Under the pieces are notes generated by a model. The model searched no databases and was not told the DNA's origin. It saw nothing but the letters and a program-made list of their open reading frames with translations. Below are positions 30,417 through 56,734 of a stretch of DNA of 64,000 bases, one piece after another. The DNA is from Natronomonas gomsonensis (GTDB taxonomy: Archaea > Halobacteriota > Halobacteria > Halobacteriales > Haloarculaceae), in assembly GCF_013391635.1 (NCBI RefSeq), contig NZ_JACAWU010000001.1, positions 186,001 through 250,000 of the forward strand, written 5' to 3'. Position 1 is the stretch's first letter, and each line of letters starts with the position of its first letter. Made by a program: the position numbers and the translations under genes.

Positions 30417-30426
30417 GGTAACGAAG
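30417..30426 (+). promoter_or_regulatory. YATAACAAAG-type promoter element (weak match)
   Basis: GGTAACGAAG is 35 nt before the ATG at 30452. It matches the consensus in 7 of 10 positions and keeps the typical spacing. Confidence 0.35.
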
Positions 30427-30451
30427 GCGACGGGAACGTAGCACCCAGAAG

Positions 30452-31462
30452 ATGCGACTCGAACGACTCTCGCTTGCGGAGTGGGACGACGCCCTTCCGG
30501 ACCACGGAATCGAACCGTTCCATGCCCCCGAAGCGCTGGAAGTGCTGGACGACCATACCACCAGCGACCTCCAGTTGTTTGCGGGGTTCAACGGCGACCG
30601 GCCGGTAGCACTGCTGCCGGTGTTCGGCCGGTCGACCCCACTCGGGCGGGTACTCACGTCACCGCCGCCCGGGATGGGCGTCTCACGACTCGGGCCAGTG
30701 CTCATGCCGGCCAGCCCCAAACGGAGCAAACGGGAGAAACTCAACCGCGAGTTCACCGACCTCGTCGTGGACGCGACCCGCGCCGACTCGAGGGCGACGC
30801 TGCTTCGGCTGGTGTGTCCCACCGCGTACGGCGACCCCCGGCCCTACGTCTGGGACGGCCTCGACGTCGAACCCCTGTGGACCTACCGGCTGGACATCGA
30901 CGACTGCACGCCAGACGAGTTGCTCACAGCGGCGAGCAAGAGTCTTCGCCGTGAAATCAACGACGCGGCGGCGCTGGACGTGACAGTCGAGCGAGAGGGG
31001 CTGGACGGCACGCGAGCGGTGTTCGACGAGACCCGAAAGCGGTACGCCGAGCAAGGGGAGGCGCTGTCGGTGTCGTGGCCGTACGTCCGCGACCTCGTCC
31101 GAGCGATGCGGGAGACCGACCGCGCGCGCACCTACGTCGCTCGCGACGCCGAGGGACGATTCCTCACGGGCATCACCGTCCTCTACTCGAACGACGCGGC
31201 GTACTTCTGGCAGGGCGGTACCCGGTGTGTCCACGACGGCGTCGCAGTCAACGGACTGCTCCACTGGAACATCATCGAGGACATCGCCGAGGACCCACCG
31301 CGGCCGTCGGTGTCGACCTACGACCTCCTCGGCGCCAACACCGAACGACTCAGCCGGTACAAGAGCAAGTTCGGGTCGACGCTGACGCCGTACTACGTCG
31401 TCGAATCGGGTGGATTGGGGATGACCGCGGCGAAGAAGGCGTACCAGCTCGTGGGTCGGTGA
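30452..31462 (+). CDS. FemAB-like GNAT-fold transferase (glycan modification)
   Basis: A 336-residue protein of the FemAB/BioF2-type double GNAT fold. The N-terminal half has LGRVLTSPPPGMGVSRLGPVL; the C-terminal half has LLTAASKSLRREINDA, the acetyl-donor region TGITVLYSNDAAYFWQGGT and GLLHWNIIEDIAE, and ends YDLLGANTERLSRYKSKFG. In archaeal and bacterial glycan loci such proteins transfer an aminoacyl or acyl group to a sugar. The donor is unknown. It is followed 5 bp later by a glycosyltransferase. Confidence 0.75.
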   Translation: MRLERLSLAEWDDALPDHGIEPFHAPEALEVLDDHTTSDLQLFAGFNGDRPVALLPVFGRSTPLGRVLTSPPPGMGVSRLGPVLMPASPKRSKREKLNREFTDLVVDATRADSRATLLRLVCPTAYGDPRPYVWDGLDVEPLWTYRLDIDDCTPDELLTAASKSLRREINDAAALDVTVEREGLDGTRAVFDETRKRYAEQGEALSVSWPYVRDLVRAMRETDRARTYVARDAEGRFLTGITVLYSNDAAYFWQGGTRCVHDGVAVNGLLHWNIIEDIAEDPPRPSVSTYDLLGANTERLSRYKSKFGSTLTPYYVVESGGLGMTAAKKAYQLVGR

Positions 31463-31467
31463 CCTCG

Positions 31468-32412
31468 ATGCGCGTGCTCAGCCTCGTCACCAACAGGCGG
31501 GCGACGTTCTACAGAGGACAGCGCGCCGCGCTCCGCGACCGCGGCGTCGTCGTCGACACCGTCAGCGTCCCGGGGAGCCGGTCGGACGACGGGCTCGTGG
31601 GACGAACACCGGCGACGTACCTCCGTTTCTACGGACGGGTGCTGCGGTCGTCCCTCGCCGACTACGACCTCGTCCACGCCAGTTACGGCCTCACCGCGCC
31701 GGCGGCGCTGTTGCAACCGAACCGACCCGTCGTCATGACGCTGTGGGGCAGCGACCTGATGGGCCGATACGGCCCGCTCAGCAAACTGTGTGCCAGAGCG
31801 GCCGACGAAGTCGTCGTCATGTCGACCGAGATGGCGGAAGTCCTCGGACAGCCGTGTCACGTCATCCCACACGGCATCGACGTCGAGCGGTTTCAGCCGG
31901 CTTCGAAAGCCGAGAGTCGGGCCGCGCTGGGCTGGGACGACGCCGACGGCTATCAGGTGCTGTTCCCGTACGGTCCGGAGCGACCCATCAAGGACTATCC
32001 CCGCGCCGAGCGTGTCGTCGCGGCCGCCGAGGGGAGACTCGAAGCGCCCGTCGAACTCCGGAGCGTCACCGGCGTCCCCCACGAAGAGATGCCGACGGTC
32101 GTCAACGCCGCCGACGCCCTGCTTTTGACCTCGGAGCGAGAGGGGTCGCCGAACTCGGTGAAAGAGGCGCTAGCGTGTAACGTGCCGGTCGTTTCGACCG
32201 ACGTGGGCGACGTCTCGACGATGCTTCGGGACGTCGAACCCTCCGCGGTCGGGTCGACGGACGCAGAACTCGTCGACGGCCTGGTCGAGGTGCTGTCGAC
32301 CGGCGGCCGCTCGAACGGCCGAACGATGGTCCAGCACATTCGACTGGAGAACCAGGTCGAGCAACTCCACGGCGTGTACGAACGCGCCCTCGCGGAGACC
32401 GCTCGCCGCTAA
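31468..32412 (+). CDS. Glycosyltransferase family 4 protein
   Basis: A 314-residue GT-B glycosyltransferase. The acceptor half includes VVMTLWGSDLMGRYGPLSKL and VIPHGIDVERFQPA; the donor half shows VLFPYGPERPIKDYPRAERV and the family's E-x7-E region TSEREGSPNSVKEALACNVPVVSTDVG. It is cytoplasmic and would transfer a hexose-type sugar to the growing lipid-linked glycan. The start at ATG 31468 lies just after the previous stop, so the two are co-transcribed. Confidence 0.9.
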   Translation: MRVLSLVTNRRATFYRGQRAALRDRGVVVDTVSVPGSRSDDGLVGRTPATYLRFYGRVLRSSLADYDLVHASYGLTAPAALLQPNRPVVMTLWGSDLMGRYGPLSKLCARAADEVVVMSTEMAEVLGQPCHVIPHGIDVERFQPASKAESRAALGWDDADGYQVLFPYGPERPIKDYPRAERVVAAAEGRLEAPVELRSVTGVPHEEMPTVVNAADALLLTSEREGSPNSVKEALACNVPVVSTDVGDVSTMLRDVEPSAVGSTDAELVDGLVEVLSTGGRSNGRTMVQHIRLENQVEQLHGVYERALAETARR

Positions 32413-32418
32413 GCCGAC

Positions 32419-32428
32419 TATAACGAAG
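32419..32428 (+). promoter_or_regulatory. YATAACAAAG-type promoter element
   Basis: TATAACGAAG is 35 nt before the ATG at 32454 and only 7 nt after the stop of the preceding glycosyltransferase, so the next gene has its own leaderless promoter. Confidence 0.5.
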
Positions 32429-32453
32429 TCGATACTCCCCTTCCCGTGAGCGC

Positions 32454-33191
32454 ATGGAGGATTCAGTATCGGAGCGGAGAGCGACCGGCCGACCGAAACG
32501 ACCCCTGCGTCTGGAGCTGTCGGCGTACGGGCAGTTGCTTCATCGTCTTCGCGAGGAGGGGCGCCGATTCGTCGACGTCCGCCGGCGTGCCGACGGCGTC
32601 GTGTTACACCACGACGTGGAGCTGTCGCTGTCCCGCGCGCTCACGATGGCGCGACTGGAGGCGACTCACCGCATCCGCGGAACGTACTGCATCCCGGTTC
32701 GGTCGTCGCTTCACGACGCCTCGACGGTAGTGTTCGCACGCACCGTCCGGTCGATTTCGCGGCTCGGCCACGAGGTCGGCCTCCAGTTCGACCCGAGGGC
32801 CTACTGGGAGGAGCTTCCGAGCGAGGCGGCGCTGCTGTCAGAAATCGACCGCGAGCGGAGAGCACTGAGTCGGCTCTCGAAGGACCCCGTCGAGGTCGTC
32901 TCGTTTCGACGGCCGACGGAGCGGCTCAGTCGGCTCGAACTCCCAGACGCCATCAACGCCTGTCGGGACCCCGAGGAGCCGTCGTATCGGGTCGTGACCG
33001 ACCGGGAGCTTCGAGACACCGAACCGTTTTCCGACGGCATCCCCGAGCGGTTCCGACTGGTCGTCCACCCCGGTCTGTGGCGGCCCGTCGCACAGTCGGA
33101 GTCGGCCGTCGTCGAGACGTACCGACAGAAGGCGGCGTCGGCCGTCGAATCCTACTTCGACGCCTTCGACATCCCGACACCGCGCCGATAA
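32454..33191 (+). CDS. Polysaccharide-deacetylase-like protein, probably inactive
   Basis: A 245-residue relative of the NodB-fold protein at 48304. The two align through VVLHHDVELSLSRALTMA versus VVRHDIDLSPTAALAMA, RGTYCIPVR, and LVVHPGLWRP versus LVHPGLWTP near the end. Here the second metal-motif Asp is Glu, and the zinc-binding His stretch of 48304 (VHFDTHHYWDD) reads LQFDPRAYWEE with no His. It therefore may bind a glycan or act structurally. No signal peptide is present. It converges with the ParB-like gene. Confidence 0.65.
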   Translation: MEDSVSERRATGRPKRPLRLELSAYGQLLHRLREEGRRFVDVRRRADGVVLHHDVELSLSRALTMARLEATHRIRGTYCIPVRSSLHDASTVVFARTVRSISRLGHEVGLQFDPRAYWEELPSEAALLSEIDRERRALSRLSKDPVEVVSFRRPTERLSRLELPDAINACRDPEEPSYRVVTDRELRDTEPFSDGIPERFRLVVHPGLWRPVAQSESAVVETYRQKAASAVESYFDAFDIPTPRR

Positions 33192-33202
33192 CGTCGACTC
33201 CG

Positions 33203-34039
33203 TCAGGACTCCTCGAGCTGTTTCAGGTCCGGGTGGTCGGCGACGGCCGATGGGAGGACGCCCGTCTCGGCGACGTGGTCGGCGACCCGGTCACGGAACG
33301 CAACCCACGCCTCGTGTCGGCGGAGTATCACCACCGGAACCCTATCGACGCCCAGCACCTTCGCTATCGACAGCCGGTTGCGGCCGTCCGCGAACAGCAA
33401 CTCGCCGTCGCGGCCGATGTCTATCGCCATCTCGTCGTTGATGAGGCGGTCGTAGACCGAACGCCGTCGCGAGCCGACCGGGTCGTCGTAGGCGCTATCG
33501 GCCGCCAACTCCCGCTGGGTTCGAAAGCCATCGGCCGCGACGCGCTCGTACAGCCGGTCGAGGTTCCGGAGACGGCGCTCCAGCGCCGCCCGCGAGTCAC
33601 ACCCCCACGGCTGTTCGCCGCGGCGTATCTCCTCGAGCACGCGGTCGAAAAACGCCGTCTCCGACCACTCGAGGTCCCGCTGGAAGTGCGCTTCGAACGC
33701 CCGGTAGACGTCGGTGTCGACGAATCGGCGTCCGCTTCGGTCCCAGTCGCCGTCCATCACTGAACCGGCCCACCGGAATCGCGGCAATTCGGGCGGTTCG
33801 GTGACGTACTCGATTCGGTCGGGGTCGACCCAGGCGATTCGGTAGGGGTCTATCGGCGCCGTGTGGCGTCGGCCGTGGCGCCACTGCGCATAGCGGAGCC
33901 ACAGGTGGGCATAGCGGCCACGGAGTTCCGCCAGCGGGCCATCGAGCCACGGCACGGCTGCGGCGAGCCGTCGACCGGTGCCCCGAACGACCGAGTCGAG
34001 CATCGAGAGGGCGCCCGCGGACGCCTCACGACCAGCCAT
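33203..34039 (-). CDS. ParB-like-domain protein in glycan locus
   Basis: A 278-residue protein. The C-terminal third contains DEMAIDIGRDGELLFADGRNRLSIAKVLGVDRVPVVIL, the pattern of the ParB/sulfiredoxin-like nuclease fold (GRNRL resembles the GHRR box). Residues 1-180 are Arg- and Trp-rich and unrecognised (RYAHLWLRYAQWRHGRRHTAP). There is no helix-turn-helix, so chromosome partitioning is unlikely. Starts at 34039 or 34003 are possible. Similar domains occur next to glycosyltransferases in other haloarchaeal loci as I recall; its job is unknown. Confidence 0.6.
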   Translation of the reverse strand: MAGREASAGALSMLDSVVRGTGRRLAAAVPWLDGPLAELRGRYAHLWLRYAQWRHGRRHTAPIDPYRIAWVDPDRIEYVTEPPELPRFRWAGSVMDGDWDRSGRRFVDTDVYRAFEAHFQRDLEWSETAFFDRVLEEIRRGEQPWGCDSRAALERRLRNLDRLYERVAADGFRTQRELAADSAYDDPVGSRRRSVYDRLINDEMAIDIGRDGELLFADGRNRLSIAKVLGVDRVPVVILRRHEAWVAFRDRVADHVAETGVLPSAVADHPDLKQLEES

Positions 34040-34499
34040 CGGCCACCCCGTTCCGTCGGAAAGCGCCGTCGCTCGCCGCCGTCGTCACGTATCGACTACC
34101 GGTACTCGGACCCGAGCGAACCATTCTGCCGTACGGACTCGACCCGTGTGTTTCGTTATTTTACCCCTACACCCGTGGGAAAGCGTACCTTACCCACGGA
34201 CATCGGGAGGCACCTGGTGGAAACGCAGCATCAGCCGTGACGGCGACCCGTTCCGATTAGTACGTTCATACCCCGAACGGTTGGTTTGGACGGTTACCTG
34301 TGTTTATATGGGTCGCCGGTAAGGGTTCCAATCGAGCCAACGGGTGGACGACGCGGGGAACGGGATAGGGGATGTGGTTCGGTGCCACTAACGCGTGGTG
34401 GCCGTGTCGCCGTCGGTGGCGGTGCGGCCGCGATAGCGACTGCAGGCGGTGAACGGGCGTCCTCGACGTGCCACTTACGGCGACCGAAAGGGGAGAACC
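34040..34499. other. 460-bp regulatory intergenic region
   Basis: No convincing protein gene is present. It holds an AATAACGAAA element facing the ParB-like gene, a canonical TATA box TTTATAT at 34303-34309 for the DUF7344 gene, and then a leader of about 165 nt ending in the Shine-Dalgarno-like GGGGAG at 34490. The long leader contrasts with the leaderless mRNAs predicted nearby. Confidence 0.5.
34151..34160 (-). promoter_or_regulatory. YATAACAAAG-type promoter element (weak match)
   Basis: AATAACGAAA on the minus strand, 121 nt before the ParB-like ATG at 34039. It matches seven of ten consensus positions, and the spacing is atypical. Confidence 0.3.
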
Positions 34500-35060
34500 A
34501 TGTCACAAGCTCAAACCACACGACAAACGCAGGTCGAATCGGCACCCGAGACAGCGGACGACGACAGCGAGGCCGTCTCGTCCGTCCCGCTCGACGTCGT
34601 CTTCGGGCTGTTGAAAAACGAGCGTCGCCGGCTCGTCTTGAAGTTCCTAGAGGATTCGGACGGCGGAACGTCGCTCAGCGACCTCGCGGAACACATCGCG
34701 GCGGTGGAGAACGACAAGGCGGTGTCGGCGCTGAGTTCCCAGGAGCGAAAGCGCGTCTACATCGGGCTCTATCAGTGTCACCTCCCACAGATGGCTGACA
34801 GCGGCGCCATCGAGTTCGACAAGAATCGGGGGACCGTCGGGCACGGACCCAACATCGACCAGTTCCTCGAGTACCTCGAGCAGCCCGAACCGACCCGCTC
34901 ACGGTGGAGTCGCTACTACCTCGGCCACACCGTCGTCAGCCTCACGCTCGTCGTCGGTGCACTGGTGGTGTACGAAGCCCTCGCGACGGCGTTTTTCGCG
35001 CTCTCGATGCTCGGCTTTGCGGCGCTGGCGGTTCTGCACACCTCCCACGCGCGGGACTGA
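34500..35060 (+). CDS. DUF7344-type winged-helix protein with C-terminal membrane hairpin
   Basis: A 186-residue protein. Residues 30-130 form the winged helix (LDVVFGLLKNERRRLVLKFL, then SLSDLAEHIAAVENDKAV and RKRVYIGLYQCHLPQMADSG). Two hydrophobic segments follow near the end (VVSLTLVVGALVVYEALA and FFALSMLGFAALAVLH), so the DNA-binding domain may be tethered to the membrane. The start has GGGGAG 7 nt upstream. An 81-nt stretch is identical to the gene at 37612. It is probably a regulator of the glycan genes. Confidence 0.75.
   Translation: MSQAQTTRQTQVESAPETADDDSEAVSSVPLDVVFGLLKNERRRLVLKFLEDSDGGTSLSDLAEHIAAVENDKAVSALSSQERKRVYIGLYQCHLPQMADSGAIEFDKNRGTVGHGPNIDQFLEYLEQPEPTRSRWSRYYLGHTVVSLTLVVGALVVYEALATAFFALSMLGFAALAVLHTSHARD
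34680..34760 (+). repeat. 81-nt block identical to 37912-37992
   Basis: Every base, including third codon positions, matches the reverse complement of 37912-37992. It covers the winged-helix segment DLAEHIAAVENDKAV to RKRVY. Sequence on either side diverges. Confidence 0.9.
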
Positions 35061-35169
35061 ACGCCGACGAACCGTCAGCACGTTCGGTCGTATCGTCCGC
35101 ACGCTGTGTGGCGGTTTTCCGTGTGTGAATAGTTACCGCTTACTTGTATTCGCCCTCGACTCTCCGGAG

Positions 35170-35179
35170 CATAACAAAG
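35170..35179 (+). promoter_or_regulatory. YATAACAAAG promoter element (consensus)
   Basis: CATAACAAAG is 148 nt before the glmS ATG and 71 nt before a small leader ORF at 35241. Confidence 0.5.
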
Positions 35180-35240
35180 CGATTGGCTCCACCCAGAGTG
35201 GGTAACCGGCGCCGACAGTTCGGCACCCCGGGACCCAGAT

Positions 35241-35315
35241 ATGTACCGACGCTACACGACAGATTCGACAGGCGACCGTCCGACAACTACCGCCGCGATT
35301 CGGGGGGAGTGCTGA
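35241..35315 (+). CDS. Possible 24-codon leader ORF of glmS
   Basis: ATG at 35241 opens a 24-residue frame (MYRRYTTDSTGDRPTTTAAI then RGEC) whose TGA ends 2 nt before the glmS ATG. Its length and coupling resemble the leader ORFs at 51533 and 56759. It could be chance; its start is not at the usual distance from the promoter element. Confidence 0.25.
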   Translation: MYRRYTTDSTGDRPTTTAAIRGEC

Positions 35316-35317
35316 CG

Positions 35318-37132: not shown

Positions 37133-37236
37133 GCGGTGCCGAACCGACGTGTTCCGGCGATTTTAGCGACACCTGCGTCTGCGGCGAACTCGGAGTATCC
37201 TCCGGATAGCGGCGACGAACCGACCGTTCCGCTCGG

Positions 37237-37246
37237 CATTACAAAG
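37237..37246 (+). promoter_or_regulatory. YATAACAAAG-type promoter element
   Basis: CATTACAAAG is 33 nt before the ATG at 37270, indicating a leaderless transcript for the small zinc-finger gene. Confidence 0.5.
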
Positions 37247-37269: not shown

Positions 37270-37440
37270 ATGGACTCCCTACAGGAGGACCAAACCAACT
37301 GGTCGTGTGAACGGTGTGGAACATCGGTGTCGGCACGGTTCGTTCGCGTGTTCGGAAGGGGCCGCTCCGTCTACGGCTGTACGCAGTGTCTCCCCTCGAA
37401 GGCGCTGTATGCGGGAGCGGCCGCCCGTTCCAGCGAGTGA
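37270..37440 (+). CDS. Small zinc-finger protein (DUF7563-like)
   Basis: A 56-residue protein with two Cys pairs, CERC near residue 13 and CTQC near 38, spaced as a zinc ribbon: WSCERCGTSVSARFVRVFG, then VYGCTQCLPSKALY. It is basic between the pairs, which fits nucleic-acid binding. Haloarchaea carry many such small zinc-finger proteins. ATG 37270 is favoured over 37246 by the promoter element at 37237. Function is unknown, perhaps regulatory within the locus. Confidence 0.7.
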   Translation: MDSLQEDQTNWSCERCGTSVSARFVRVFGRGRSVYGCTQCLPSKALYAGAAARSSE

Positions 37441-37504
37441 CGCCACGGATTATGTCACTCGGATCATCACAAAAAATTATACCACAGGAAAGCAACTGAC
37501 GCAT

Positions 37505-37611: not shown

Positions 37612-38202
37612 TTATCGCCGCTCGGCAGTCAGGAGTTGCCAGCCCGCGAGCACTGCGTACACCGAAAGCGACAGCGCAAACAGGACGGGCAAAAACGACT
37701 CGAACCACACGACCCCCACCAACAGCGCGACGATGCTGAGCGCCGTGTGAATCACGTACGCGATGGGCAGCCTCGTCGATTCGGGCTCCGACGGCTGGGA
37801 GAGATGGGCGTAGACGCGGTCGGCGTTCGGGCCGACCGAGACCGTCCCGTCGTCGAGAGAGACCACACCGACCTCTTCCATCCGTGGGAGGTGTGCCTGA
37901 TAGAGGCTGACGTAGACGCGCTTTCGCTCCTGGGAACTCAGCGCCGACACCGCCTTGTCGTTCTCCACCGCCGCGATGTGTTCCGCGAGGTCGTTGATAG
38001 TCGACTCCCCGCCGGAGGCCTCGAGTTGCCGCAGCACGTGTCGACGCCGCGAGGAACTGAGAACGTCGAAGACGACGTCGAGTGAGTTCCCTTCGTTCGA
38101 CGTTTCACTCCCGGTCGTGCCGCTTTCTCCACCCCCGCTATTCCCCCGAGTGTTCGATTTCGCGCTATAAGTCACGACCAACTGTGTGATGTCCATATCC
38201 AT
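37612..38202 (-). CDS. DUF7344-type winged-helix protein with C-terminal membrane hairpin
   Basis: A 196-residue protein (194 if begun at 38196). A Ser/Gly/Thr-rich N-terminal 40 residues lead into LDVVFDVLSSSRRRHVLRQLEASGG, the block shared with the 34500 protein, and RKRVYVSLYQAHLPRMEEVGVV. The end carries two membrane segments (YVIHTALSIVALLVGVVWF and LPVLFALSLSVYAVLAGW). It is convergent with the zinc-finger gene. It probably regulates glycan genes from the membrane, by analogy only. Confidence 0.75.
   Translation of the reverse strand: MDMDITQLVVTYSAKSNTRGNSGGGESGTTGSETSNEGNSLDVVFDVLSSSRRRHVLRQLEASGGESTINDLAEHIAAVENDKAVSALSSQERKRVYVSLYQAHLPRMEEVGVVSLDDGTVSVGPNADRVYAHLSQPSEPESTRLPIAYVIHTALSIVALLVGVVWFESFLPVLFALSLSVYAVLAGWQLLTAERR
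37912..37992 (-). repeat. 81-nt block identical to 34680-34760
   Basis: Minus-strand copy of the identical winged-helix segment. The two copies are inverted relative to each other and about 3.2 kb apart, so recombination between them could invert glmS and the zinc-finger gene. Confidence 0.9.
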
Positions 38203-38593: not shown

Positions 38594-38746
38594 ATCCGCT
38601 AAGTCGACACCACCCCATATTAACGTTTTGAGAGTGTTTTTGATTCAACACAACCGCCTGCTCGTGGTTGCGGGATGAGCGAACCGACCGGCATTGCCTC
38701 GCCGTGTAGGAGATAACCACTCGTTATTCCGGATCGGTAATCGCCT

Positions 38747-38756
38747 GTTAACAATA
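38747..38756 (+). promoter_or_regulatory. YATAACAAAG-type promoter element (weak match)
   Basis: GTTAACAATA is 34 nt before the ATG of a 36-codon ORF at 38781 and 150 nt before the kinase ATG. Confidence 0.3.
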
Positions 38757-38891: not shown

Positions 38892-38896
38892 GACCG

Positions 38897-39917: not shown

Positions 39918-40196
39918 ATGTCATCAGAGTGGGACGAAATCGGCTACGTCATCAGCTCGAAGTACCGCGTCGCGGTGCTCCGACAGTTGGCGTCCGAGCC
40001 GTCGACGCCGACGACCATCGCCGAGGAGTCCGGACTCGGCATCACACACATCTCGCGTGCGCTGCGGCGGCTCCGGGAGCGGGAGATGGTCGAATTGCTC
40101 GTACCCGAGGCCCGACAGAAGGGCCGCCTGTACGCGCTGACCGAACTCGGCGAAGCGGTGTGGAAGCGCATCCTCACCGCTGATTTACTGACGTAG
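39918..40196 (+). CDS. Small winged-helix regulator (PhiH1 repressor-like)
   Basis: A 92-residue winged-helix protein: WDEIGYVISSKYRVAVLRQL, then TIAEESGLGITHISRALRRLREREMVELLVPEARQKGRLYALTELG. The layout resembles the haloarchaeal phage PhiH1 repressor and MarR-like proteins. A paralogue of the same length lies at 50468. ATG 39918 begins the conserved region. It precedes two beta-helix genes and may control them. Confidence 0.8.
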   Translation: MSSEWDEIGYVISSKYRVAVLRQLASEPSTPTTIAEESGLGITHISRALRRLREREMVELLVPEARQKGRLYALTELGEAVWKRILTADLLT

Positions 40197-40222
40197 TGGG
40201 TGCCTAATCGGGGTACGCTTCC

Positions 40223-40232
40223 TATTACAATG
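40223..40232 (+). promoter_or_regulatory. YATAACAAAG-type promoter element
   Basis: TATTACAATG is 35 nt before the ATG at 40258. Confidence 0.5.
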
Positions 40233-41804: not shown

Positions 41805-41814
41805 CATTACACTC
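41805..41814 (+). promoter_or_regulatory. YATAACAAAG-type promoter element (weak match)
   Basis: CATTACACTC is 37 nt before the ATG at 41842, which supports that start over the ATG at 41824. Confidence 0.35.
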
Positions 41815-43865: not shown

Positions 43866-43912
43866 CGGTCGGCTAGCCTCGCCCTACCCGGGCGACGGCG
43901 GCGAAATCCGTT

Positions 43913-43922
43913 CATAACAAAG
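43913..43922 (+). promoter_or_regulatory. YATAACAAAG promoter element (consensus)
   Basis: CATAACAAAG is 70 nt before the ATG at 43983. The intervening leader has a 7-bp inverted repeat, CGGCCGA (43951-43957) with TCGGCCG (43963-43969). Confidence 0.55.
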
Positions 43923-49001: not shown

Positions 49002-49934
49002 TCAGTCCGACCGCCCGTTCAGGGGGCGGTTGAGCACCATATCCAGCACCATCCCGCCGAGGAGTGCGACGATTCCGACGAGCGTGAGTCCGGAGCGTCG
49101 CCGGAGGACGGTGCCGACGAGTCCGACGACCGCGCCGGCGGCGCCGCCGACGAACAGCCCCGTCCGGAGTTGTTCGCTCGGTGAATCGCGCTTCGTCGCC
49201 AGCCGCCAGACGAACATCCGGAGCAACATGAGCGACACCCGCGGGATGTACTCGGCGTAGCTGATGGTGCTCGTCTCGTCGCCGTAGGACAGCGGTGCGG
49301 GCACGTCGACGACGGTTTGGCCCGCGGCACTGAGTCTGACTAACAGGTCGTTGCAGTAGCCGTAGAACTCGTACATCGCCTTGATGTCGATGGCCTCGAG
49401 TGCCGACCGCGAGATGGCGGTGTACCCCATCTGCGGGTCGCCGACGTGCCAGTAGCCGGTGGCAACTTTCGTCAGATACGTCAACACCATGTTGCCGACG
49501 TAGCGGAACGCCGGCATCTCGGCGTGGTCGGACTCGCGTATCAGCCGGTTACCCTTCGCGTAGTCGGCGCGGCCGTCGACGACCGGTTCGACGATGCGCA
49601 CTAGCTCGTCGGGGTCCATCTGTCCGTCCCCGCCCATCACCGCGATTACGTCGATGTCGTCCTCCAGGGCGCGGAGATACCCCGTCTTGATGGCGCCGCC
49701 GACGCCCCGGTTTTCCTCGTGACGTATCGGGACGACGAAGGGATTCTCCCCCTCGCGGCGATGTTCAGTTTGGCGTTTCGCTCGCTGTATCTCCGCCCAC
49801 GTCTCGTCCGTCGAGCGGTCGTCGATGGCGTAGGCGCGGTCGACGAACGCCGGGAGCGTCTCGAGGACCTCCCCGACGAACCCCGCTTCGTTGTACGCTG
49901 GAACGACGACGCCGATGGAGCTGTTTTCGTACAT
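49002..49934 (-). CDS. Family 2 glycosyltransferase with C-terminal membrane segments
   Basis: A 310-residue GT-A enzyme of the dolichol-phosphate-sugar synthase type. Motifs are GVVVPAYNEAGFVGEVLETL, AIDDRSTDET, EENRGVGGAIKTGY and VMGGDGQMDPDEL (DxD-like). Two membrane helices close the protein (GLFVGGAAGAVVGLVGTVLR and GLTLVGIVALLGGMVLDMVL). It likely charges polyprenyl phosphate with a sugar, the donor type used by GT-C proteins such as the one at 43983. ATG 49934 begins the conserved fold. Confidence 0.9.
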   Translation of the reverse strand: MYENSSIGVVVPAYNEAGFVGEVLETLPAFVDRAYAIDDRSTDETWAEIQRAKRQTEHRREGENPFVVPIRHEENRGVGGAIKTGYLRALEDDIDVIAVMGGDGQMDPDELVRIVEPVVDGRADYAKGNRLIRESDHAEMPAFRYVGNMVLTYLTKVATGYWHVGDPQMGYTAISRSALEAIDIKAMYEFYGYCNDLLVRLSAAGQTVVDVPAPLSYGDETSTISYAEYIPRVSLMLLRMFVWRLATKRDSPSEQLRTGLFVGGAAGAVVGLVGTVLRRRSGLTLVGIVALLGGMVLDMVLNRPLNGRSD

Positions 49935-49988: not shown

Positions 49989-49998
49989 TATTGTTATG
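49989..49998 (-). promoter_or_regulatory. YATAACAAAG-type promoter element
   Basis: CATAACAATA on the minus strand, 64 nt before the family 2 glycosyltransferase ATG at 49934. Confidence 0.5.
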
Positions 49999-50248
49999 GG
50001 CTGGCTGACTGGTGGCTGCGACAGTTCACTCGGGACCACGGCGGCTAGGCGGTGGATACCGACGGCGACGTTCGGTAAGCAGTGACAACCGCTCGAAGTC
50101 GTCGGGAAAAGCCACACCGTTGCCGGGGTGTTTGTCGCCGACTACCGACCGTCGAGAGACCGGTAGTCGGTGACCAACTCATCGCCGGAATTCCGAACGC
50201 TCGTGAACGCTCGATACGTATTTGAGTCCCCGAATCCACCAAGCAAAT

Positions 50249-50467: not shown

Positions 50468-50746
50468 TCAATCCACCAGTTCTCGGTTCTGAATCTCCGT
50501 CCAGAGCCGCTCGCCCCGCTCGGTGATCCCGTAGACGCGGCCCTTCCGTCGGTCCTCGTCGACGAGCAGTTCGACGAGGTCCCGCTCCCGGAGCTGTTTG
50601 AGCGCGTGCGACACCGAGGCGATGGAGATGTCCTCGTCCTCGGAGATCTTCGACGGCGTCGCCGGCCCCTCCACGAGGCGGTTGAGGACACTGATTCGGT
50701 ACTTCGAGCTGATGATGAACCCGATTTCGTCCCAGTCGTCGGTCAT
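50468..50746 (-). CDS. Small winged-helix regulator (PhiH1 repressor-like)
   Basis: A 92-residue paralogue of the protein at 39918: WDEIGFIISSKYRISVLNRL, KISEDEDISIASVSHALKQLRERDLVELLVDEDRRKGRVYGITERG. Recognition helix residues differ, so the operators may differ too. It lies 25 bp downstream of a DUF7344 gene on the same strand, and the two probably form a regulatory operon. Confidence 0.8.
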   Translation of the reverse strand: MTDDWDEIGFIISSKYRISVLNRLVEGPATPSKISEDEDISIASVSHALKQLRERDLVELLVDEDRRKGRVYGITERGERLWTEIQNRELVD

Positions 50747-50771
50747 CGAATCACACCCCAGGGGCTCGCGC

Positions 50772-51302
50772 TCATTGTTCGGCCCCCCGTGACACCACAG
50801 GCCGGAGTTGTCGTCTCGACGACCGGTAGTAGACGAGGCTCAGCACGGTAAACAGGAGTATGATGACCGTGCCGACCGCCGCACTGAACTGGGGGGCGAG
50901 AAGCACCGAGAGGACGTGAACGACCAGTCCACCGATGGATACCCCCAGAAAGTACCGCGGCCACTCGTCGCTCGGTTCCTCCGATGAGAGATACGACGTT
51001 ATCGTCCGCAGGTTCCCGTTCAGTTCGACGGTCCGCTCGTCGGGGTCGTACTCGACGACGCCCGCCTTTGCGAGCTTCGGGATGTGCGTCTGATACAGCG
51101 AGACGTACGTCCGTTTGCGCTGCTTCTCGTCGAGCTGTTCGGCCTCGGTGTCGTTTTCGACGGCCGCGACGTGGGCCGCGAGCTCGTCGATGCCGACCGG
51201 TGTGTCCTGTTCGAGCAGGTATTTCAGCGCGAGTCGTCGCCGTGCGTTACTCAGCAAATCGAATGCAGCGTCTTGTGACAGTGTGCTTGAATCGTTCGAC
51301 AT
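50772..51302 (-). CDS. DUF7344-type winged-helix protein with C-terminal membrane hairpin
   Basis: A 176-residue protein. The winged helix spans DAAFDLLSNARRRLALKYLL to RTYVSLYQTHIPKLAKAGVV. Membrane segments FLGVSIGGLVVHVLSVLLA and AVGTVIILLFTVLSLVYY follow. It does not share the 81-nt identical block of the other two copies, so that identity is not simply family conservation. ATG 51302 is the first Met of the conserved region. Confidence 0.75.
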   Translation of the reverse strand: MSNDSSTLSQDAAFDLLSNARRRLALKYLLEQDTPVGIDELAAHVAAVENDTEAEQLDEKQRKRTYVSLYQTHIPKLAKAGVVEYDPDERTVELNGNLRTITSYLSSEEPSDEWPRYFLGVSIGGLVVHVLSVLLAPQFSAAVGTVIILLFTVLSLVYYRSSRRQLRPVVSRGAEQ

Positions 51303-51496
51303 TACCAGTCTCGGTAGTCTCGTTTCGGATCCCGTGATCGGCTCTACCGCCACCAACCGCCCCACGGCACTTTGTTACACAGCGGTTATCGCTCGGCCCG
51401 GTGGGGCGACCGACCTCTAACAGCCCGTTTTCGACGGATACGGCCCCTTTCGGCCATCGCATGGAGTCGTTTCTCACCCGACGGCGGTATGGTGGG

Positions 51497-51506
51497 GATA
51501 ACAAAG
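51497..51506 (+). promoter_or_regulatory. YATAACAAAG-type promoter element
   Basis: GATAACAAAG is 36 nt before the ATG of a 24-codon leader ORF at 51533 and 103 nt before the DUF1616 gene. Confidence 0.5.
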
Positions 51507-51532
51507 GCCGACGGCCGCCGCCCACAGGTAAG

Positions 51533-51607
51533 ATGAGCGAACCGAACTCTCGGGGGACACCACGACGGACTCTCGAAGCGTCGAGAACCGGAGGGACCGA
51601 TGAGTGA
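51533..51607 (+). CDS. Candidate 24-codon leader ORF overlapping the DUF1616 gene
   Basis: ATG 51533 begins MSEPNSRGTPRRTLEASRTG, then GTDE, ending TGA at 51605-51607. The stop overlaps the ATG of the main gene at 51600 by 8 nt. It is placed for leaderless initiation. The ending GGTD-x-stop and the 8-nt overlap recur at 56759. Confidence 0.4.
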   Translation: MSEPNSRGTPRRTLEASRTGGTDE

Positions 51608-52598
51608 CGAAAGCCGAATGCAGTCACTACACGTGAAAGACGGCACTGTCGGAAGCGTCCCGCTCGACATCGTCGCCGGGTGGGGAGTACTCGCCGGCGC
51701 CCACATCGCCGGGTTCCTGTCTTTGGGCACTCCGGTTCGGTTGATTCTCGCCGCACCGGTGGTGTTCTTCCTCCCCGGATACGTCACCGTCTCGGCGGCA
51801 TTCCCACAGCGGGCGACCGCGCCGGAACTCCGGTATCCGACTCGAATCTCCGTCGGGGAACGGTTCGCGCTCTCGGTCGGATTGAGTCTCGTCATCGTTC
51901 CGCTCCTGGGTCTGCTCGTCGCGCTGTTCCCGGGCGGAATCACCGAGCCGGTCGTAGCCGGCCTGCTCGGGGCGTACATCGTCGGCGGGGGCGTCGTCGC
52001 CAGCGTCCGGCGGTTTCACGTCCCAGCGGAGCACCGCTTTCGGGTTCCGGTCGGACACTGGGTCGGCCGACTCGTCGGCTCGCTCCGTCACGGCTCCCTC
52101 GGCGAGCGGGCCGTCACACTCGTGTTGTGTCTGAGCATCGTCTCGACGGTCGCCGCCGCCGGCTTCGTCCTCGCCGTGCCGGCCGACGGCGAGTCCTTCA
52201 CCGACCTCCATCTCGTCACCGAGACCGACGACGGCGATCTCGTCGCCGATGGCTATCCGACGAACCTGACCGAAGGCCAGCCAGCGACCTACACCGCTGG
52301 CATCGAGAACCACGAGGGCATCGCCACCGACTACGTGGTGGTGGTGACTCTCGACCGGGTCACCGAGATAGAGGGAGCACAGCGGACCGTCGAGTCGAAC
52401 GAACTCGCGCGGTTCGACGCGACGGTCGCCGCCGGCGACCGCTGGACTCGAAGCCACACCCTCACACCGGAGATGACCGGTGAGGAACTCCGGCTGACCT
52501 ACCACCTGTACGTCGACACCGCTCCCGAAACCGCCGACAGGGACAGCGCCTACCGCACCGTCCACATCTGGGTCGACGTCGCCCCCGCCGACGCCTGA
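51600..52598 (+). CDS. DUF1616 membrane protein
   Basis: A 332-residue protein of the archaeal DUF1616 type. Four to five membrane helices lie in residues 20-200 (LDIVAGWGVLAGAHIAGFLS, LILAAPVVFFLPGYVTVSAA and so on), with GERFALSVGLSLVIVPLLGL central. An outward-facing beta-sandwich (about 210-330) has the pattern LTEGQPATYTAGIENHEG, like surface-layer or cell-adhesion modules. These proteins occur in many glycan clusters, but their role is unknown. A 3-bp-spaced hydrolase-like gene follows. Confidence 0.82.
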   Translation: MSDESRMQSLHVKDGTVGSVPLDIVAGWGVLAGAHIAGFLSLGTPVRLILAAPVVFFLPGYVTVSAAFPQRATAPELRYPTRISVGERFALSVGLSLVIVPLLGLLVALFPGGITEPVVAGLLGAYIVGGGVVASVRRFHVPAEHRFRVPVGHWVGRLVGSLRHGSLGERAVTLVLCLSIVSTVAAAGFVLAVPADGESFTDLHLVTETDDGDLVADGYPTNLTEGQPATYTAGIENHEGIATDYVVVVTLDRVTEIEGAQRTVESNELARFDATVAAGDRWTRSHTLTPEMTGEELRLTYHLYVDTAPETADRDSAYRTVHIWVDVAPADA

Positions 52599-52600
52599 CC

Positions 52601-53161
52601 ATGCTCCCGTGGGAACACCTCGCGGTCGGCTACCTCGGGTATTCGGCGTGGAGCCACCTCCGAGACGGCCGACGGCCCTCGGGCCGCCCCGTCGTCGTCG
52701 TCGCGATCGCCACCCAGTTGCCCGACCTCATCGACAAGCCGCTGGCGTGGGAGTTCGGCCTTCTCCCCGGCGGGCAGACGCTCGCTCACTCCCTCGTGTT
52801 CGCACTGCCTGCAGTGGCGTTCGTCCTCGGCGCCTTCGGCAGCCGAATCGGGGTCGCCTTCGCCATCGGCTATCTGACACACCTCGCGGGCGACGTGGTG
52901 TACCCGATGGTTCTCGGTGGAGGCCCGCGCGTGTCGTTTCTCCTCTGGCCGTTCGTCGAAGCGGTGCCCAGCGAATCGCCGGGGTTTCTCGCCGAAACGT
53001 GGGCGATTCTCGGTGACGCGAGGCAGTTCATGTTGAGCCCCGAGGGAACCATCTACCTGGCCGCGGAACTCGCGTTGCTGCTCGCGGTGTTCGCGCTGTG
53101 GCGCTACGACGGCCACCCCGGCGTGCCGCGCCGGTCGAGGTCGCCCCGAATCGGACGGTAA
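52601..53161 (+). CDS. Membrane-bound metal-dependent hydrolase-like protein (DUF457/YdjM)
   Basis: A 186-residue membrane protein. The family pattern is seen in MLPWEHLAVGYLGYSAWSHL, ATQLPDLIDKPLA, GGQTLAHSLVF and GYLTHLAGDVVYP, which supply conserved Asp and His residues between helices. The substrate of this family is not established; a lipid or glycan phosphodiester is a guess. It follows the DUF1616 gene by 2 nt, so both are one unit. Confidence 0.8.
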   Translation: MLPWEHLAVGYLGYSAWSHLRDGRRPSGRPVVVVAIATQLPDLIDKPLAWEFGLLPGGQTLAHSLVFALPAVAFVLGAFGSRIGVAFAIGYLTHLAGDVVYPMVLGGGPRVSFLLWPFVEAVPSESPGFLAETWAILGDARQFMLSPEGTIYLAAELALLLAVFALWRYDGHPGVPRRSRSPRIGR

Positions 53162-53208
53162 AGCGGCGCTCGAATCGAGAAGTAACGGTCTACTCGCCGA
53201 AAGCGCAT

Positions 53209-53218
53209 CATAACAAAA
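53209..53218 (+). promoter_or_regulatory. YATAACAAAG promoter element
   Basis: CATAACAAAA is 59 nt before the aminotransferase ATG at 53268. Confidence 0.5.
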
Positions 53219-53267
53219 CCCGATTGCGGCGACCACCTGACAAGCCGTCAGCACGGCCCGCGACACT

Positions 53268-54425
53268 ATGACACAGGATACGACGCCCTCGAAGACCGCG
53301 AGTAACGAGTCGGCCGATACCCGACGAACGCTGCTGCGTTCGATACCGATAGCCGACCCGGACGTCGGCGCCGCCGAAGCCGAGCGGGTGTCGGCCGTCA
53401 TCGACAGCGGCCGGCTGGCCGATGGCCCGGAAGTCAGGGCCTTCGAGTCGGAATTCGCCGACTACTGCGGCACCGACCACGCCGTCGCGACCTCCAACGG
53501 GACGACGGCGTTACACGCGGCGCTCGTCGCCGCGGGCATCGAACCCGGCGACCGCGTTCTGACGACGCCGTTTACGTTCATCGCGACGGCGAACGCGATT
53601 CGGCTCTGCGGAGCCACCCCCGTCTTCGCCGACATCGACCCCGTCACCTACAACCTCGACCCCGTGGCCGTCGAGCGCCAACTCGAGGCGGAATCAGTCG
53701 ATGCGATTCTCGCCGTCCACCTCTACGGGCTGCCCGCCCCGATGGGAGCGTTGCGGCGGTTAGCAGACGAGTACCACCTCACACTCATCGAGGACGCCGC
53801 TCAGGCCCACGGCGCGGCAATCGACGGCCGCCGCGTCGGCTCGCTCAGCGACGCGGCGACGTTCTCGTTTTACCCGACGAAGAACATGACGACCGGGGAA
53901 GGCGGGATGATTACGACCGACAGCAGTTCGATTGCGGCCCACGCCCGGTCGTTCATCAACCACGGACGGACGGACGCCGACAGCAGCTACGAGCACCATC
54001 GCGTCGGACACAACTTCCGGATGACGAGTCTGTGTGCGGCCATCGGCCGGGAGCAACTCGAGAAGCTCCCGTCGTACGTCGAATCGCGGCGGCGAAACGC
54101 CGAGCGATACACCGAGGCGCTGACGGAGGCGCCGTCGATTCGCCCGCCGGTCGAACCAGACGGCTACCGGCACAGCTATCACCAGTACACCGTTCGCTGT
54201 TCGGACCGCGAGGGCCTCGCGGAGTGGCTCGACGATGGGAACATCTCGTCAGGCGTGTACTACCCGCGAGGCGTCCACGAACAGCCGCCGTACGTCGACA
54301 TCGGCGGGAGCTATCCGGAGGCCGAACGAGCCACCGAGACCGTCCTCTCCGTGCCGGTACATCCCGGCCTCGACGAGGCGGAAGTCGAGCGCGTCGCCGA
54401 CCGACTCGCGAGGTTCGACCGATGA
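53268..54425 (+). CDS. DegT/DnrJ/EryC1 sugar aminotransferase (WbpE-like)
   Basis: A 385-residue PLP enzyme that aminates a keto-sugar nucleotide. Lys205 in FSFYPTKNMTTGEGG binds PLP; LIEDAAQAHGA provides the Asp, and VATSNGTTALHAAL the phosphate-binding loop. The ending GVYYPRGVHEQP fits WbpE/ArnB relatives. It overlaps the oxidoreductase start by 4 nt. With the oxidoreductase, acetyltransferase and dehydrogenase nearby, the likely substrate is UDP-2-acetamido-3-keto-glucuronic acid. Confidence 0.9.
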   Translation: MTQDTTPSKTASNESADTRRTLLRSIPIADPDVGAAEAERVSAVIDSGRLADGPEVRAFESEFADYCGTDHAVATSNGTTALHAALVAAGIEPGDRVLTTPFTFIATANAIRLCGATPVFADIDPVTYNLDPVAVERQLEAESVDAILAVHLYGLPAPMGALRRLADEYHLTLIEDAAQAHGAAIDGRRVGSLSDAATFSFYPTKNMTTGEGGMITTDSSSIAAHARSFINHGRTDADSSYEHHRVGHNFRMTSLCAAIGREQLEKLPSYVESRRRNAERYTEALTEAPSIRPPVEPDGYRHSYHQYTVRCSDREGLAEWLDDGNISSGVYYPRGVHEQPPYVDIGGSYPEAERATETVLSVPVHPGLDEAEVERVADRLARFDR

Positions 54426-55399
54426 TTCCCGTCGGCGTCGTCGGCGTCGGGAGCATGGGGCGCCACCACGCGCGGGTGTACCGGGAACTCCCGGGGGCGG
54501 AACTCGTCGGGATCCACGACGCCGACGAAAAACGAGCCGCCGGCGTCGCCGCCGAACAGGGGACCCAATCCATGGAGTTGCCGGCGTTGCTCGACGCCGT
54601 CGAGGCGGTGTCGGTCGTCGTGCCGACGCCCTATCACCGCGAGGTGGCGGAGGCGGCGACCGACGCCGGCACGAGCCTGCTCGTCGAGAAACCGCTCGCG
54701 GGGACGCCACGGGACGCACGCGCAATCGTCGATGCGGCCGAGGAGGCCGGCGTCACGCTGCAGGTCGGCCACGTCGAGCGGTTCAACCCCGCCGTTCAGG
54801 CGGTCTCGGAGTTCGCCGACGAACTCGACATCGTGGCGCTGGAGGCCCAGCGACTCGGGCCGCCGGTCGACCGCGCTGGCGACGACGGCGCCGTAATGGA
54901 CCTGATGATTCACGACATCGACATCGCGCTGTCGCTGCTCGGGGAGTCGGTCGTGGACGTGCGGACGACCGGAACCGCCGACGGCGAACACGTCACGTCG
55001 ATGCTGACGTTCGAGGGGGGCAGCGTCGCGACGCTCACCGCGAGTCGAATTACACAAAAGAAGGTGCGGACGCTGGCGTTGACCGCCGCGGACTGTCGCG
55101 TCGACGTCGACTACACCTCACAGGACGTGACGATAACTCGGCAGACCACCCCGGAGTACATCGAGGCCAACGGCGGACTGCGGTTCCGCAGCGAGACGGT
55201 CGTCGAGCGCCCGACGGTCAAAAACGGCGAGCCGTTGAAGGCGGAACTCGCGTCGTTCGTCGACTGCGTCAGAACGGGAACGCCACCGGAGGTGACCGGC
55301 GAAGACGGGCTTCGAGCGCTCGAAGTCGCGGGGCGCGTCCTCGAGACGCTCACACACGACGGCAGCGTCGAGTGGGCCGACCAGCGGACCCACTCCTGA
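54422..55399 (+). CDS. Gfo/Idh/MocA sugar dehydrogenase (WbpB-like)
   Basis: A 325-residue NAD(P)-dependent oxidoreductase. The Rossmann motif GVVGVGSMGRHHARVYREL is at 4-22, LLVEKPLAGTPRDA gives the conserved EKP, and MDLMIHDIDIALSLLG holds the catalytic Asp-His. In the WbpB role it would oxidise C3 of UDP-GlcNAc uronic acid before transamination. Coupling to the aminotransferase by a 4-nt overlap supports that step order. Confidence 0.9.
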   Translation: MIPVGVVGVGSMGRHHARVYRELPGAELVGIHDADEKRAAGVAAEQGTQSMELPALLDAVEAVSVVVPTPYHREVAEAATDAGTSLLVEKPLAGTPRDARAIVDAAEEAGVTLQVGHVERFNPAVQAVSEFADELDIVALEAQRLGPPVDRAGDDGAVMDLMIHDIDIALSLLGESVVDVRTTGTADGEHVTSMLTFEGGSVATLTASRITQKKVRTLALTAADCRVDVDYTSQDVTITRQTTPEYIEANGGLRFRSETVVERPTVKNGEPLKAELASFVDCVRTGTPPEVTGEDGLRALEVAGRVLETLTHDGSVEWADQRTHS

Positions 55400-55417
55400 A
55401 CGACTCAGTCGCGGTGC

Positions 55418-56611
55418 TTACCGCTGGATGGCGTGTCGAACCCCGCGGAGGAACGGCCGCGGGTCGTCGAATTTGAGTACGTCGAAGTTCGGCATCCGGT
55501 AACAGGACATCGCGATTTCTGCCGCCGTACCGACGAGAGACGGCGCCTCGACGAACGGGGAGTCGTCGGTGATGATGCTCAACAGGTGGCCGAGTTCGCC
55601 GTACAACAGGTGGCTGCCGACGCCGACCTCGTAGCCCGGTTCGATTTCCTCGCCGCGCCCGGTCGCCAACAGCCAGTAGTGTGCCGGAAAGTCCGCACCC
55701 GCCACGACGGCACAGGGCAGCGACTGCCACATCCGGGGGTTGATTTCGGTCAGCACGTACTCGCCGGTGTCGGCGTCGCGCATGTACTCGATGCAGGCGA
55801 GGCCGTGATAGTCGAGGTGGTCCAACAGTTGCGTCCCGACGGCTTCGAGTTCGGGATCGGCTATCGACTCCCGGTAGACGCCGCCGCCGCCGGTGTAGGA
55901 ATCGCCGCGAATCTGTCGGTGCTGGAACGTCGACACCGCCTCCCCGTGGTCGTACAGCGCGCCGAAGACGTACTCCCCAGAGGACCGGACGTACTCCTGG
56001 ACGATGGGTTCGTGTTTCATCTCGGCTTCGATTTCGTCGACGTCCGGCGTTTCCCCGGGGCGGACGTGCGTCACCGTCTTCACGACCCCGACGTCCCGCG
56101 GGGACCACTCGGGGAGGTACTCGTCGACGAGGAGGTTGTATCGGGATTTGATGATGCGCTCTTCGTCCCAAGTGTCGACGTCGGAGAGCAGTTGCGTCTC
56201 GGGGGCGGGAACGCCGGCCTCCCCGGCGGCTTCGATGAGCCGAACCCGGTCGTGGACGGTTCGAAGCGTCTCCATCGGCGGCGTGACAAGCGAGACGTAC
56301 GGCTCGAAGCGGTCGGCGTACTTCGCGAAGACGTAGGGGTCCTGCGGTCGAAGCGGGGCGATGGTCCGAACCTCGGGGCGGGCGGCGACGCCGACCAGGG
56401 CGTCCCGGTAGGCGAGGAGGTCCTCGGTGGGCGAGGGCAGCCGGACGAATTCGTCACAGAACCGCGAGGCGGCCGCGGGAACGTCGTCGTGCTCCGAGCC
56501 GATTATCGTCCCGACATCCAGTCGGGCGAGTGACCGAACACTGGTGTAACTCCCCGCGTCGAATCCGGTCGGAATCAGCATCGATCCCCCGTCGGTAGTC
56601 ACGTCGTGCAT
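55418..56611 (-). CDS. ATP-grasp ligase, unknown substrate
   Basis: A 397-residue ATP-grasp enzyme, as in carbamoyl-phosphate-synthase-like ligases of glycan loci. The N-terminal half recalls a PurT/CarB preATP-grasp fold (MLIPTGFDAGSYTSVRSLAR). The grasp core shows PIVQEYVRSSGEYVFGALYD, the flexible loop IRGDSYTGGGGVYRESIADP and VLTEINPRMWQSLP with the Glu-Asn metal ligands. It may join an amino acid to a sugar carboxylate. ATG 56611 is chosen over 56638 because a promoter element lies 34 nt upstream. It runs against its neighbours. Confidence 0.8.
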   Translation of the reverse strand: MHDVTTDGGSMLIPTGFDAGSYTSVRSLARLDVGTIIGSEHDDVPAAASRFCDEFVRLPSPTEDLLAYRDALVGVAARPEVRTIAPLRPQDPYVFAKYADRFEPYVSLVTPPMETLRTVHDRVRLIEAAGEAGVPAPETQLLSDVDTWDEERIIKSRYNLLVDEYLPEWSPRDVGVVKTVTHVRPGETPDVDEIEAEMKHEPIVQEYVRSSGEYVFGALYDHGEAVSTFQHRQIRGDSYTGGGGVYRESIADPELEAVGTQLLDHLDYHGLACIEYMRDADTGEYVLTEINPRMWQSLPCAVVAGADFPAHYWLLATGRGEEIEPGYEVGVGSHLLYGELGHLLSIITDDSPFVEAPSLVGTAAEIAMSCYRMPNFDVLKFDDPRPFLRGVRHAIQR

Positions 56612-56635
56612 ACCGGAGCGAGGGGAGTCCGGGCC

Positions 56636-56645
56636 CATTGCTATA
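56636..56645 (-). promoter_or_regulatory. YATAACAAAG-type promoter element
   Basis: TATAGCAATG on the minus strand, 34 nt before the ATP-grasp ATG at 56611. Confidence 0.4.
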
Positions 56646-56724
56646 GAGGAACTACCGGAACCCGGCGGGCGGACGGCTGAGCCGAACCCGCCGACGAGAG
56701 CCCCGCAGCGTGCGGTAGTGGCAC

Positions 56725-56734
56725 CATAACAAAG
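56725..56734 (+). promoter_or_regulatory. YATAACAAAG promoter element (consensus)
   Basis: CATAACAAAG is 34 nt before a GTG that opens a 23-codon leader ORF, and 98 nt before the acetyltransferase ATG. Confidence 0.55.

Follow-up and report, generated by a model that had tools for sequence, protein, structure and literature searches.

Surface-sugar genes of haloarchaea appear to share a start signal unlike the normal one, hinting at a dedicated control system

Promoter specificity in archaea that encode many transcription factor B (TFB) proteins and few TATA-binding proteins (TBPs) is an open question. The canonical basal promoter of haloarchaea consists of a B recognition element (BRE) CGAAA, a TATA box TTWT, and WW at -10 (PMC4983044). 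Promoters with a weak BRE that are activated by TFB-RF1 (PMC5937170) and EarA (PMC5512572) combine a non-consensus core with a conserved upstream site at a fixed distance across related species. ArnR and ArnR1 of Sulfolobus regulate surface structures (PMC6396743), and CsmR of Haloferax volcanii is a haloarchaeal winged-helix regulator whose site lies beside the BRE/TATA of surface-structure genes (PMC13286277). Here we describe a 20-bp element, GYARG-N5-CATAACRAAG, in a glycan region at 30.4-60.7 kb of a 64,000-nucleotide stretch of the Natronomonas gomsonensis genome (the window; C1:186001-250000 of a 3.38-Mb genome in two contigs). The element is bipartite, stands in register to start codons, is conserved across genera, and is tied to glycan loci; we have high confidence in the element, both its halves, its register, and its conservation. 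The surface-sugar genes of haloarchaea appear to be switched on through a common signal that departs from the usual one, a hint that a control system is dedicated to them.

Like the canonical haloarchaeal promoter, the element holds the same positions relative to a leaderless start codon and keeps an A near -10, but it has ACRAAG for the T-rich TATA, ATA in the place of the BRE, and an extra YAR near -43 (PMC4983044). Its non-consensus core and upstream site at fixed spacing are those of an activator-type promoter, as at TFB-RF1 and EarA; unlike at those promoters, its upstream half measures about 4 bp, has no palindrome, and lies one turn from the core, and here the core itself is conserved and the target promoters are many (PMC5937170, PMC5512572). 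The CsmR site differs in being a semi-palindrome, TATCA-N4-TGATA, beside an ordinary TATA box (PMC13286277).

An unbiased search of 3815 8-mers, given no motif, ranked ATAACGAA highest (one mismatch), with its near variants next; it occurred in 11 of 21 upstream regions of the locus and in 29 of 944 others (p=4e-11). YATAACAAAG with at most one mismatch has eight matches in the window against a shuffled mean of 0.41 (0 of 100 shuffles reached 8), and all three exact copies in the genome lie inside the locus. The looser pattern ATWACRAAR has 53 matches genome-wide versus 15 for its reverse; nine of the 53 lie in a 24.3-kb span of the locus, and the binomial p=2e-10 for this clustering is too small as stated because pattern and span were both picked from this locus. 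Genes were called with a simple caller, some of whose start codons are misplaced. A fixed band 30 to 40 nt before called starts gave a weaker result (matches of at least 9/10 at 3 of 30 locus starts, 0 of 37 elsewhere in the window, and 8 of 1112 in the background), and start-independent tests were used instead. The background includes stretches placed at listed motif matches and four that border on or come after the window, which makes it, if anything, richer.

A matrix of 71 sites from other genomes, with the window left out, found 11 sites of at least 10 bits in the 26.6-kb locus (0.82 expected) and 10 of at least 15 bits (0.13 expected), with no site of at least 10 bits in the rest of the window. 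Since G016, L130, and ten loci picked for CATAACAAAG pairs supplied 41 of the 71 sites, and f6 stretches picked for YAN7CATAACAAAG supplied the other 30, the upstream column of the matrix is partly selected and site counts in those loci are partly circular. The initial annotation had listed 15 elements, and all 15 sequences lie where it placed them, minus-strand numbers giving the 5' base on that strand. Nine scored as strong (16.8-26.1 bits) and five as weak; 41805..41814(+), CATTACACTC, was rejected, with -8.0 bits and no upstream A. The element at 51379(-) was absent from that list and is newly found here. An extra site at 37465(+) scored 13.6 bits, with no obvious gene behind it.

Of the single motif proposed initially, YATAACAAAG, the core is real, and we have changed it to a bipartite element with an upstream half. 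We aligned 53 intergenic, non-redundant sites of 13 loci, having dropped 8 of 61 because they lay within genes or their flanks were nearly identical, and counted positions from the first base of the core. A stands at -8, a position not searched for, in 48 of 53 sites (p=3e-28 versus 20% A); G never occurs at -9 and is preferred at -10 and -6. Across the class, 194 genomes hold 232 sites of YAN7CATAACAAAG, in 105 of them, versus 33 for the reversed pattern. Spacing one base longer gave 62 sites in 49 of the 194 genomes, a control contaminated by real sites, 47 of the 62 also having A at -8. The upstream HA pair is carried by 12 of the 15 listed elements (p=1e-8), the exceptions being 35170, 37237, and 41805.

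The register to start codons is narrow. ATGs fall at +33 to +37 from the element's first base 35 times in 80 sites, and among 154 non-redundant sites of at least 12 bits it falls at +32 to +38 in 72 and at +39 to +45 in 34, five other 7-nt bins holding 4, 7, 7, 9, and 10. Ten of the 15 listed elements have an ATG at 33-37 nt, as claimed initially, and three of these ATGs (after 34160-, 38747, and 51497) open only 24-36-aa open reading frames (ORFs), not an annotated gene. Canonical promoters of this genome, taken from 724 background upstream regions, show A at -35 to -33, T at -30 to -26, and A at -10. Because the ATGs peak at +33 to +37, CATAACRAAG covers about -35 to -26, the BRE/TATA place of a leaderless promoter, and so shares the register of the canonical core promoter. 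Both the BRE/TATA position given in the initial annotation and its TTTATA-like boxes at genes elsewhere fit these data. At -30 to -26 the element has C-A-A-A-G or C-G-A-A-R instead of the T-rich box. The WW at -11/-10 is present as a modest signal (A or T at both +23 and +24 in 32 of 53 sites), and A at +24 in 25 of 53 sites fits the genome's -10 A (background A 35% at -10). Transcription would start about 34 nt downstream of the element.

Short ORFs are common behind the element. At 38 of the 72 sites with an ATG at +32 to +38, the ATG opens an ORF of less than 50 aa, for example at 51497(+) in the window and in L161-L164 and L167, which suggests short leaderless ORFs ahead of leadered genes. 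Some of these ORFs are similar between genomes (MTGTYG..., MTMSR...).

The element recurs well beyond the window. A search for orthologs of the 47310 protein led to a G016 locus with nine sites in 40 kb and to L130, from a Haloferacaceae metagenome-assembled genome, with six in 20 kb (reversed pattern, 0); the L130 ortholog of gene 47310 has AATAACAAAG, with its ATG likewise at +37. In genomes of the family, CATAACAAAG is often paired at 7-10 kb. Ten such pair loci hold 37 ATWACRAAR sites, 36 of them outside called genes, and no reversed match in any of the ten, about two sites per locus being due to selection on the pairs; by BLAST, DUF7344 and GT2 glycosyltransferases are encoded in 10/10 and a UDP-sugar dehydrogenase and a DUF1616 homolog each in 9/10. 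Eight named loci, selected on DUF7344 or flippase, hold 29 sites of at least 14 bits (Halorientalis sp. IM1011 alone supplies 10); the reversed matrix finds 6 there, and five column-permuted matrices find 8, 5, 3, 7, and 0. The six genomes of family f6 have 6-14 sites each (mean 9.8 versus 0.17 shifted). Ten of 25 downstream proteins in two of these genomes were compared with Pfam and comprised a hexapeptide transferase, a formyltransferase, GT4, a phosphodiesterase, a flippase, PKD, PQQ-propeller, and LVIVD proteins, and two without a Pfam family; some other f6 sites lie far from the next called gene. Between the window and the same-genus Natronomonas sp. CBA1123, nine cores are substituted at 0 of 81 positions and positions -9/-8 at 0 of 18, compared with 262 of 3727 other intergenic positions and 23 of 549 flank positions. 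The core of 32409..32428 is unchanged there except for its first base, C, not T.

The enrichment bears out the initial tie of the element to the surface-glycan locus. Strict locus-specificity is rejected, with eight sites of at least 14 bits in a 1.2-Mb background of the same genome; the element marks a regulon, not one locus only. Seven of 13 genome-wide bipartite matches lie in the locus, and at least two of the other six are inside coding sequence.

We postulate, seeing the chances as evenly balanced, that the element is a regulon-specific core promoter activated by locus-encoded DUF7344 with the general TBP and TFB. CATAACRAAG at about -35 to -26 would stand in for the BRE and the T-rich TATA box of ordinary promoters, and the YAR half would lie near -43, roughly a helical turn further upstream. 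Since its TATA part deviates from consensus, the element would be a poor site for TBP and TFB by themselves and would need an activator. By contacting the upstream half, a regulator would recruit TBP/TFB or stabilise them, and the most likely such regulator would be the DUF7344 family encoded in the motif loci; DUF7344 is the leading candidate for the protein that reads the element, with about an even chance of being it. Probably anchored in the membrane, DUF7344 could report the surface or envelope state and could switch on glycan synthesis, export, and surface proteins, as well as some of the DUF7344 genes. If this is true, it would give DUF7344 a function and provide a handle on haloarchaeal surface-glycan regulation; the element is a defined 20-bp unit whose spacing is known and whose gene set is clear. 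More tentatively, and leaning somewhat toward doubt, we speculate that the element represents a second class of haloarchaeal core promoter across families, an envelope regulon like that of a bacterial alternative sigma factor, in which a bipartite replacement of BRE/TATA would be read by a membrane-tethered DUF7344 (or a dedicated TFB/TBP) and the state of the cell surface would directly set glycan synthesis.

Several lines of evidence point to DUF7344. Homologs were found by BLAST in 13/13 motif loci compared (the window and 12 others), and motif and DUF7344 counts per genome correlate across the 194 genomes (rho 0.56 overall, 0.53 in f1, and 0.38 in f4, shared ancestry uncorrected). Where a genome has 0-3 DUF7344 matches, the motif is present in 3 of 24 cases; where it has at least 20, in 64 of 77. 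In motif loci, the element lies within 300 nt upstream of 11 of 29 DUF7344 genes, in 10 of the 11 as GTAACAAAG, the same variant as element 51379(-) in the window. The motif played no part in the choice of the eight named plasmid loci, and there the element precedes 5 of 9 DUF7344-like ORFs (Pfam for 7 of 9), those of Haloarcula marismortui, Har. hispanica, Haloferax mediterranei, Halorubrum lacusprofundi, and Halorientalis sp. IM1011. The Hfx. mediterranei gene is at L291:13887 on pHME505, and the Har. hispanica locus is on pHH400. The initial annotation had proposed a dedicated TFB/TBP pair or help from DUF7344, and the latter is the better supported half. All three DUF7344 proteins of the window exceed the PF24035 cut-off of 27.8 bits. 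Protein 34500 is predicted to fold as a winged helix, with helices 135-157 and 159-185 after it, and the hydropathy of all three proteins reaches 2.2-2.5 in the C-terminal part; the two hydrophobic helices are probably a membrane anchor. An N-terminal helix-turn-helix with two C-terminal hydrophobic helices is also the layout of ArnR/ArnR1. Unlike those proteins, the window proteins contain only DUF7344 by Pfam, without a HAMP or sensory domain, and the DNA site differs from ArnR boxes; the likeness is one of architecture (PMC6396743).

Other results weigh against this interpretation. DUF7344 occurs in 192 of 194 genomes, so that presence alone proves little; in family f3, where the DUF7344 count saturates near 27, rho is -0.04. 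Other genes in motif loci carry the element equally often (111/294, background 2/873), neither of two other DUF7344 genes in the sampled third of the same genome has it, and 3 of the 8 named loci have sites (8 of 29) without a DUF7344-like ORF in the stretch. No element scores above 10 bits in 60 kb of the G042 locus (L124-L126), where the 47310 protein has a 59% ortholog; the locus does encode a divergent DUF7344-like protein (BLAST). Foldseek with DUF7344 gave weak matches (best E 0.024) to winged helices including the ArsR family, and a PDB sequence search gave none up to E 1. The core word is not over-represented in 96 genomes of the family (YATAACAAAG 247 versus 332 reversed), and core conservation between the two Natronomonas genomes is modest, the chance of 0/81 being 0.003 at the intergenic rate and 0.03 at the flank rate. 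We found no publication on the element or on DUF7344 in the literature searched, which leaves most subscription journals outside its coverage.

The genome encodes three TBPs (genes at G000:C1:402475, 479251, and 506075), the domains of two of which score much lower, along with nine TFBs that have both repeats and a further two matches to a single repeat; the element occupies the BRE and TATA positions, and the C within TAACRAAG looks specifically read, though the search pattern required that C. A dedicated TFB or TBP paralogue might read the element like an alternative sigma factor, without an extra activator. We consider this unlikely: on its contig, about 160 kb separates the locus from the nearest TBP and ~789 kb from the nearest TFB match (~570 kb on a circular contig), the canonical BRE bases at -35 to -33 lie downstream of the conserved pair near -43, and the TFIIB count, with TFB subfamilies pooled, tracks the motif less than the DUF7344 count does (rho 0.26 overall, 0.27 in f4, and none in f1, at 0.01).

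A repressor operator for DUF7344 or another winged helix over a weak promoter is a distinctly improbable alternative. A protein over BRE/TATA would block TBP/TFB, a 20-bp motif is a plausible footprint, and element-bearing DUF7344 genes could be autorepressed, but the register to the start codon is narrow and the logo has no T-rich box between element and start codon, which suggests that the element itself is the core promoter. Chance or base composition, that is, AT-rich words picked by eye in a GC-rich genome, would suit the failure of 41805, the five weak elements, and the lack of excess of the core word in the family; we give it almost no weight against the enrichment, the recurrence in other genera, the fixed spacing to an unsearched half, and the 10 locus sites that a matrix from other genomes finds.

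Coordinates of the elements and candidate regulators are collected in Table 1. The glycan region encodes glycosyltransferases, a GlmS-like protein (gene 35318; Pfam SIS and GATase), a flippase, a DegT aminotransferase, a Gfo/Idh oxidoreductase, a hexapeptide transferase, a UDP-sugar dehydrogenase, and DUF354 and DUF1616 proteins. Its regulator-type genes are three DUF7344, two small HVO_A0261_N winged-helix, HalOD1, and histidine kinase genes.

Table 1. Elements, candidate regulators, and best background sites. Start-codon offsets are counted from the first base of the core.
Feature	Sequence	Coordinates	Strand	Evidence and context
Element	CTAAGCCGAC-TATAACGAAG	32409..32428	+	20.3 bits; ATG of gene 32454 at +35
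Element	GTAGGGGTAA-AATAACGAAA	34151..34170	-	16.8 bits; upstream of 33203-34003/34039(-); ATG at +36 opens 32-aa ORF only
Element	CTCTCCGGAG-CATAACAAAG	35160..35179	+	16.9 bits, exact match; upstream of GlmS-like gene 35318; without upstream A
Element	GAAATCCGTT-CATAACAAAG	43903..43922	+	26.0 bits; upstream of gene 43983
Element	TCAGGGCGAG-CATAACGAAA	47263..47282	+	19.7 bits; ATG of formyltransferase-like gene 47310 at +37
Element	TCAGCCAGCC-CATAACAATA	49989..50008	-	17.9 bits; upstream of glycosyltransferase gene 49002-49934(-)
Element	ATAACCGCTG-TGTAACAAAG	51370..51389	-	17.8 bits; 77 nt before ATG of DUF7344 gene 50772-51302(-)
Element	GTATGGTGGG-GATAACAAAG	51487..51506	+	19.8 bits; upstream of DUF1616 gene 51600
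Element	GAAAGCGCAT-CATAACAAAA	53199..53218	+	25.8 bits; upstream of DegT aminotransferase gene 53268
Element	GTAGTGGCAC-CATAACAAAG	56715..56734	+	26.1 bits, exact match; upstream of hexapeptide transferase gene 56823
Weak element	GAAGGGTAGC-GGTAACGAAG	30407..30426	+	8.4 bits, upstream AA present; ATG of GNAT gene 30452 at +35
Weak element	CATTACAAAG	37227..37246	+	9.5 bits; ATG of 56-aa DUF7563 ORF at +33; without upstream A
Weak element	GTAATCGCCT-GTTAACAATA	38737..38756	+	7.9 bits, upstream TA present; ATG at +34 opens 36-aa ORF
Weak element	GTACGCTTCC-TATTACAATG	40213..40232	+	10.0 bits, upstream TA present; ATG 40258 at +35
Weak element	GTAGTTCCTC-TATAGCAATG	56636..56655	-	8.4 bits, upstream TA present; ATG of 55418-56611(-) at +34
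DUF7344 winged-helix protein, two C-terminal hydrophobic helices		34500..35060	+	PF24035 98.6 bits; predicted model; hydropathy
DUF7344 protein		37612..38202	-	PF24035 89.3 bits
DUF7344 protein		50772..51302	-	PF24035 104.5 bits; element 51379(-) in upstream region
Zinc-finger microprotein DUF7563, 56 aa		37270..37440	+	PF24444 40.4 bits
One of the two best background sites		L036:6368 (C1)		ATG at +34 of acetyltransferase gene (Pfam); FkbM-like methyltransferase gene nearby (own sequence reading)
Other of the two best background sites		L089:8496 (C2)		ATG at +34 opens 29 aa only

Two of the weak elements gain support from other genomes. The element at 30417 does so because the homologous GNAT gene in L130 also has one (L130:8289, GGTAACAAAA, 16.7 bits, 40 nt before the ATG), and that at 37237 because small zinc-finger proteins follow the element elsewhere. 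Such proteins of 56-63 aa stand directly behind the element at 37270-37440(+) in the window and at L294:27840-28031 (DUF7563 by Pfam), and similar ones were seen by eye in L177/L178 (G028) at 35279(-) and L179/L180 (G008) at 37906(-).

The two HVO_A0261_N winged-helix genes of the locus, at 39918-40196(+) and 50468-50746(-), encode similar 92-aa proteins, and homologs recur in 5 of 13 other loci compared. In Haloarcula (L290:14834, L295:14774, and genus g6), TAATATATTA or TAATCGATTA precedes the element before DUF7344; these near-palindromes may be a further operator. A 93-94-aa ORF, PadR-like by eye, lies near DUF7344 and DUF1616 in G011, G067, G030, and G055, behind a CTAACAAAA variant with its ATG at +36.

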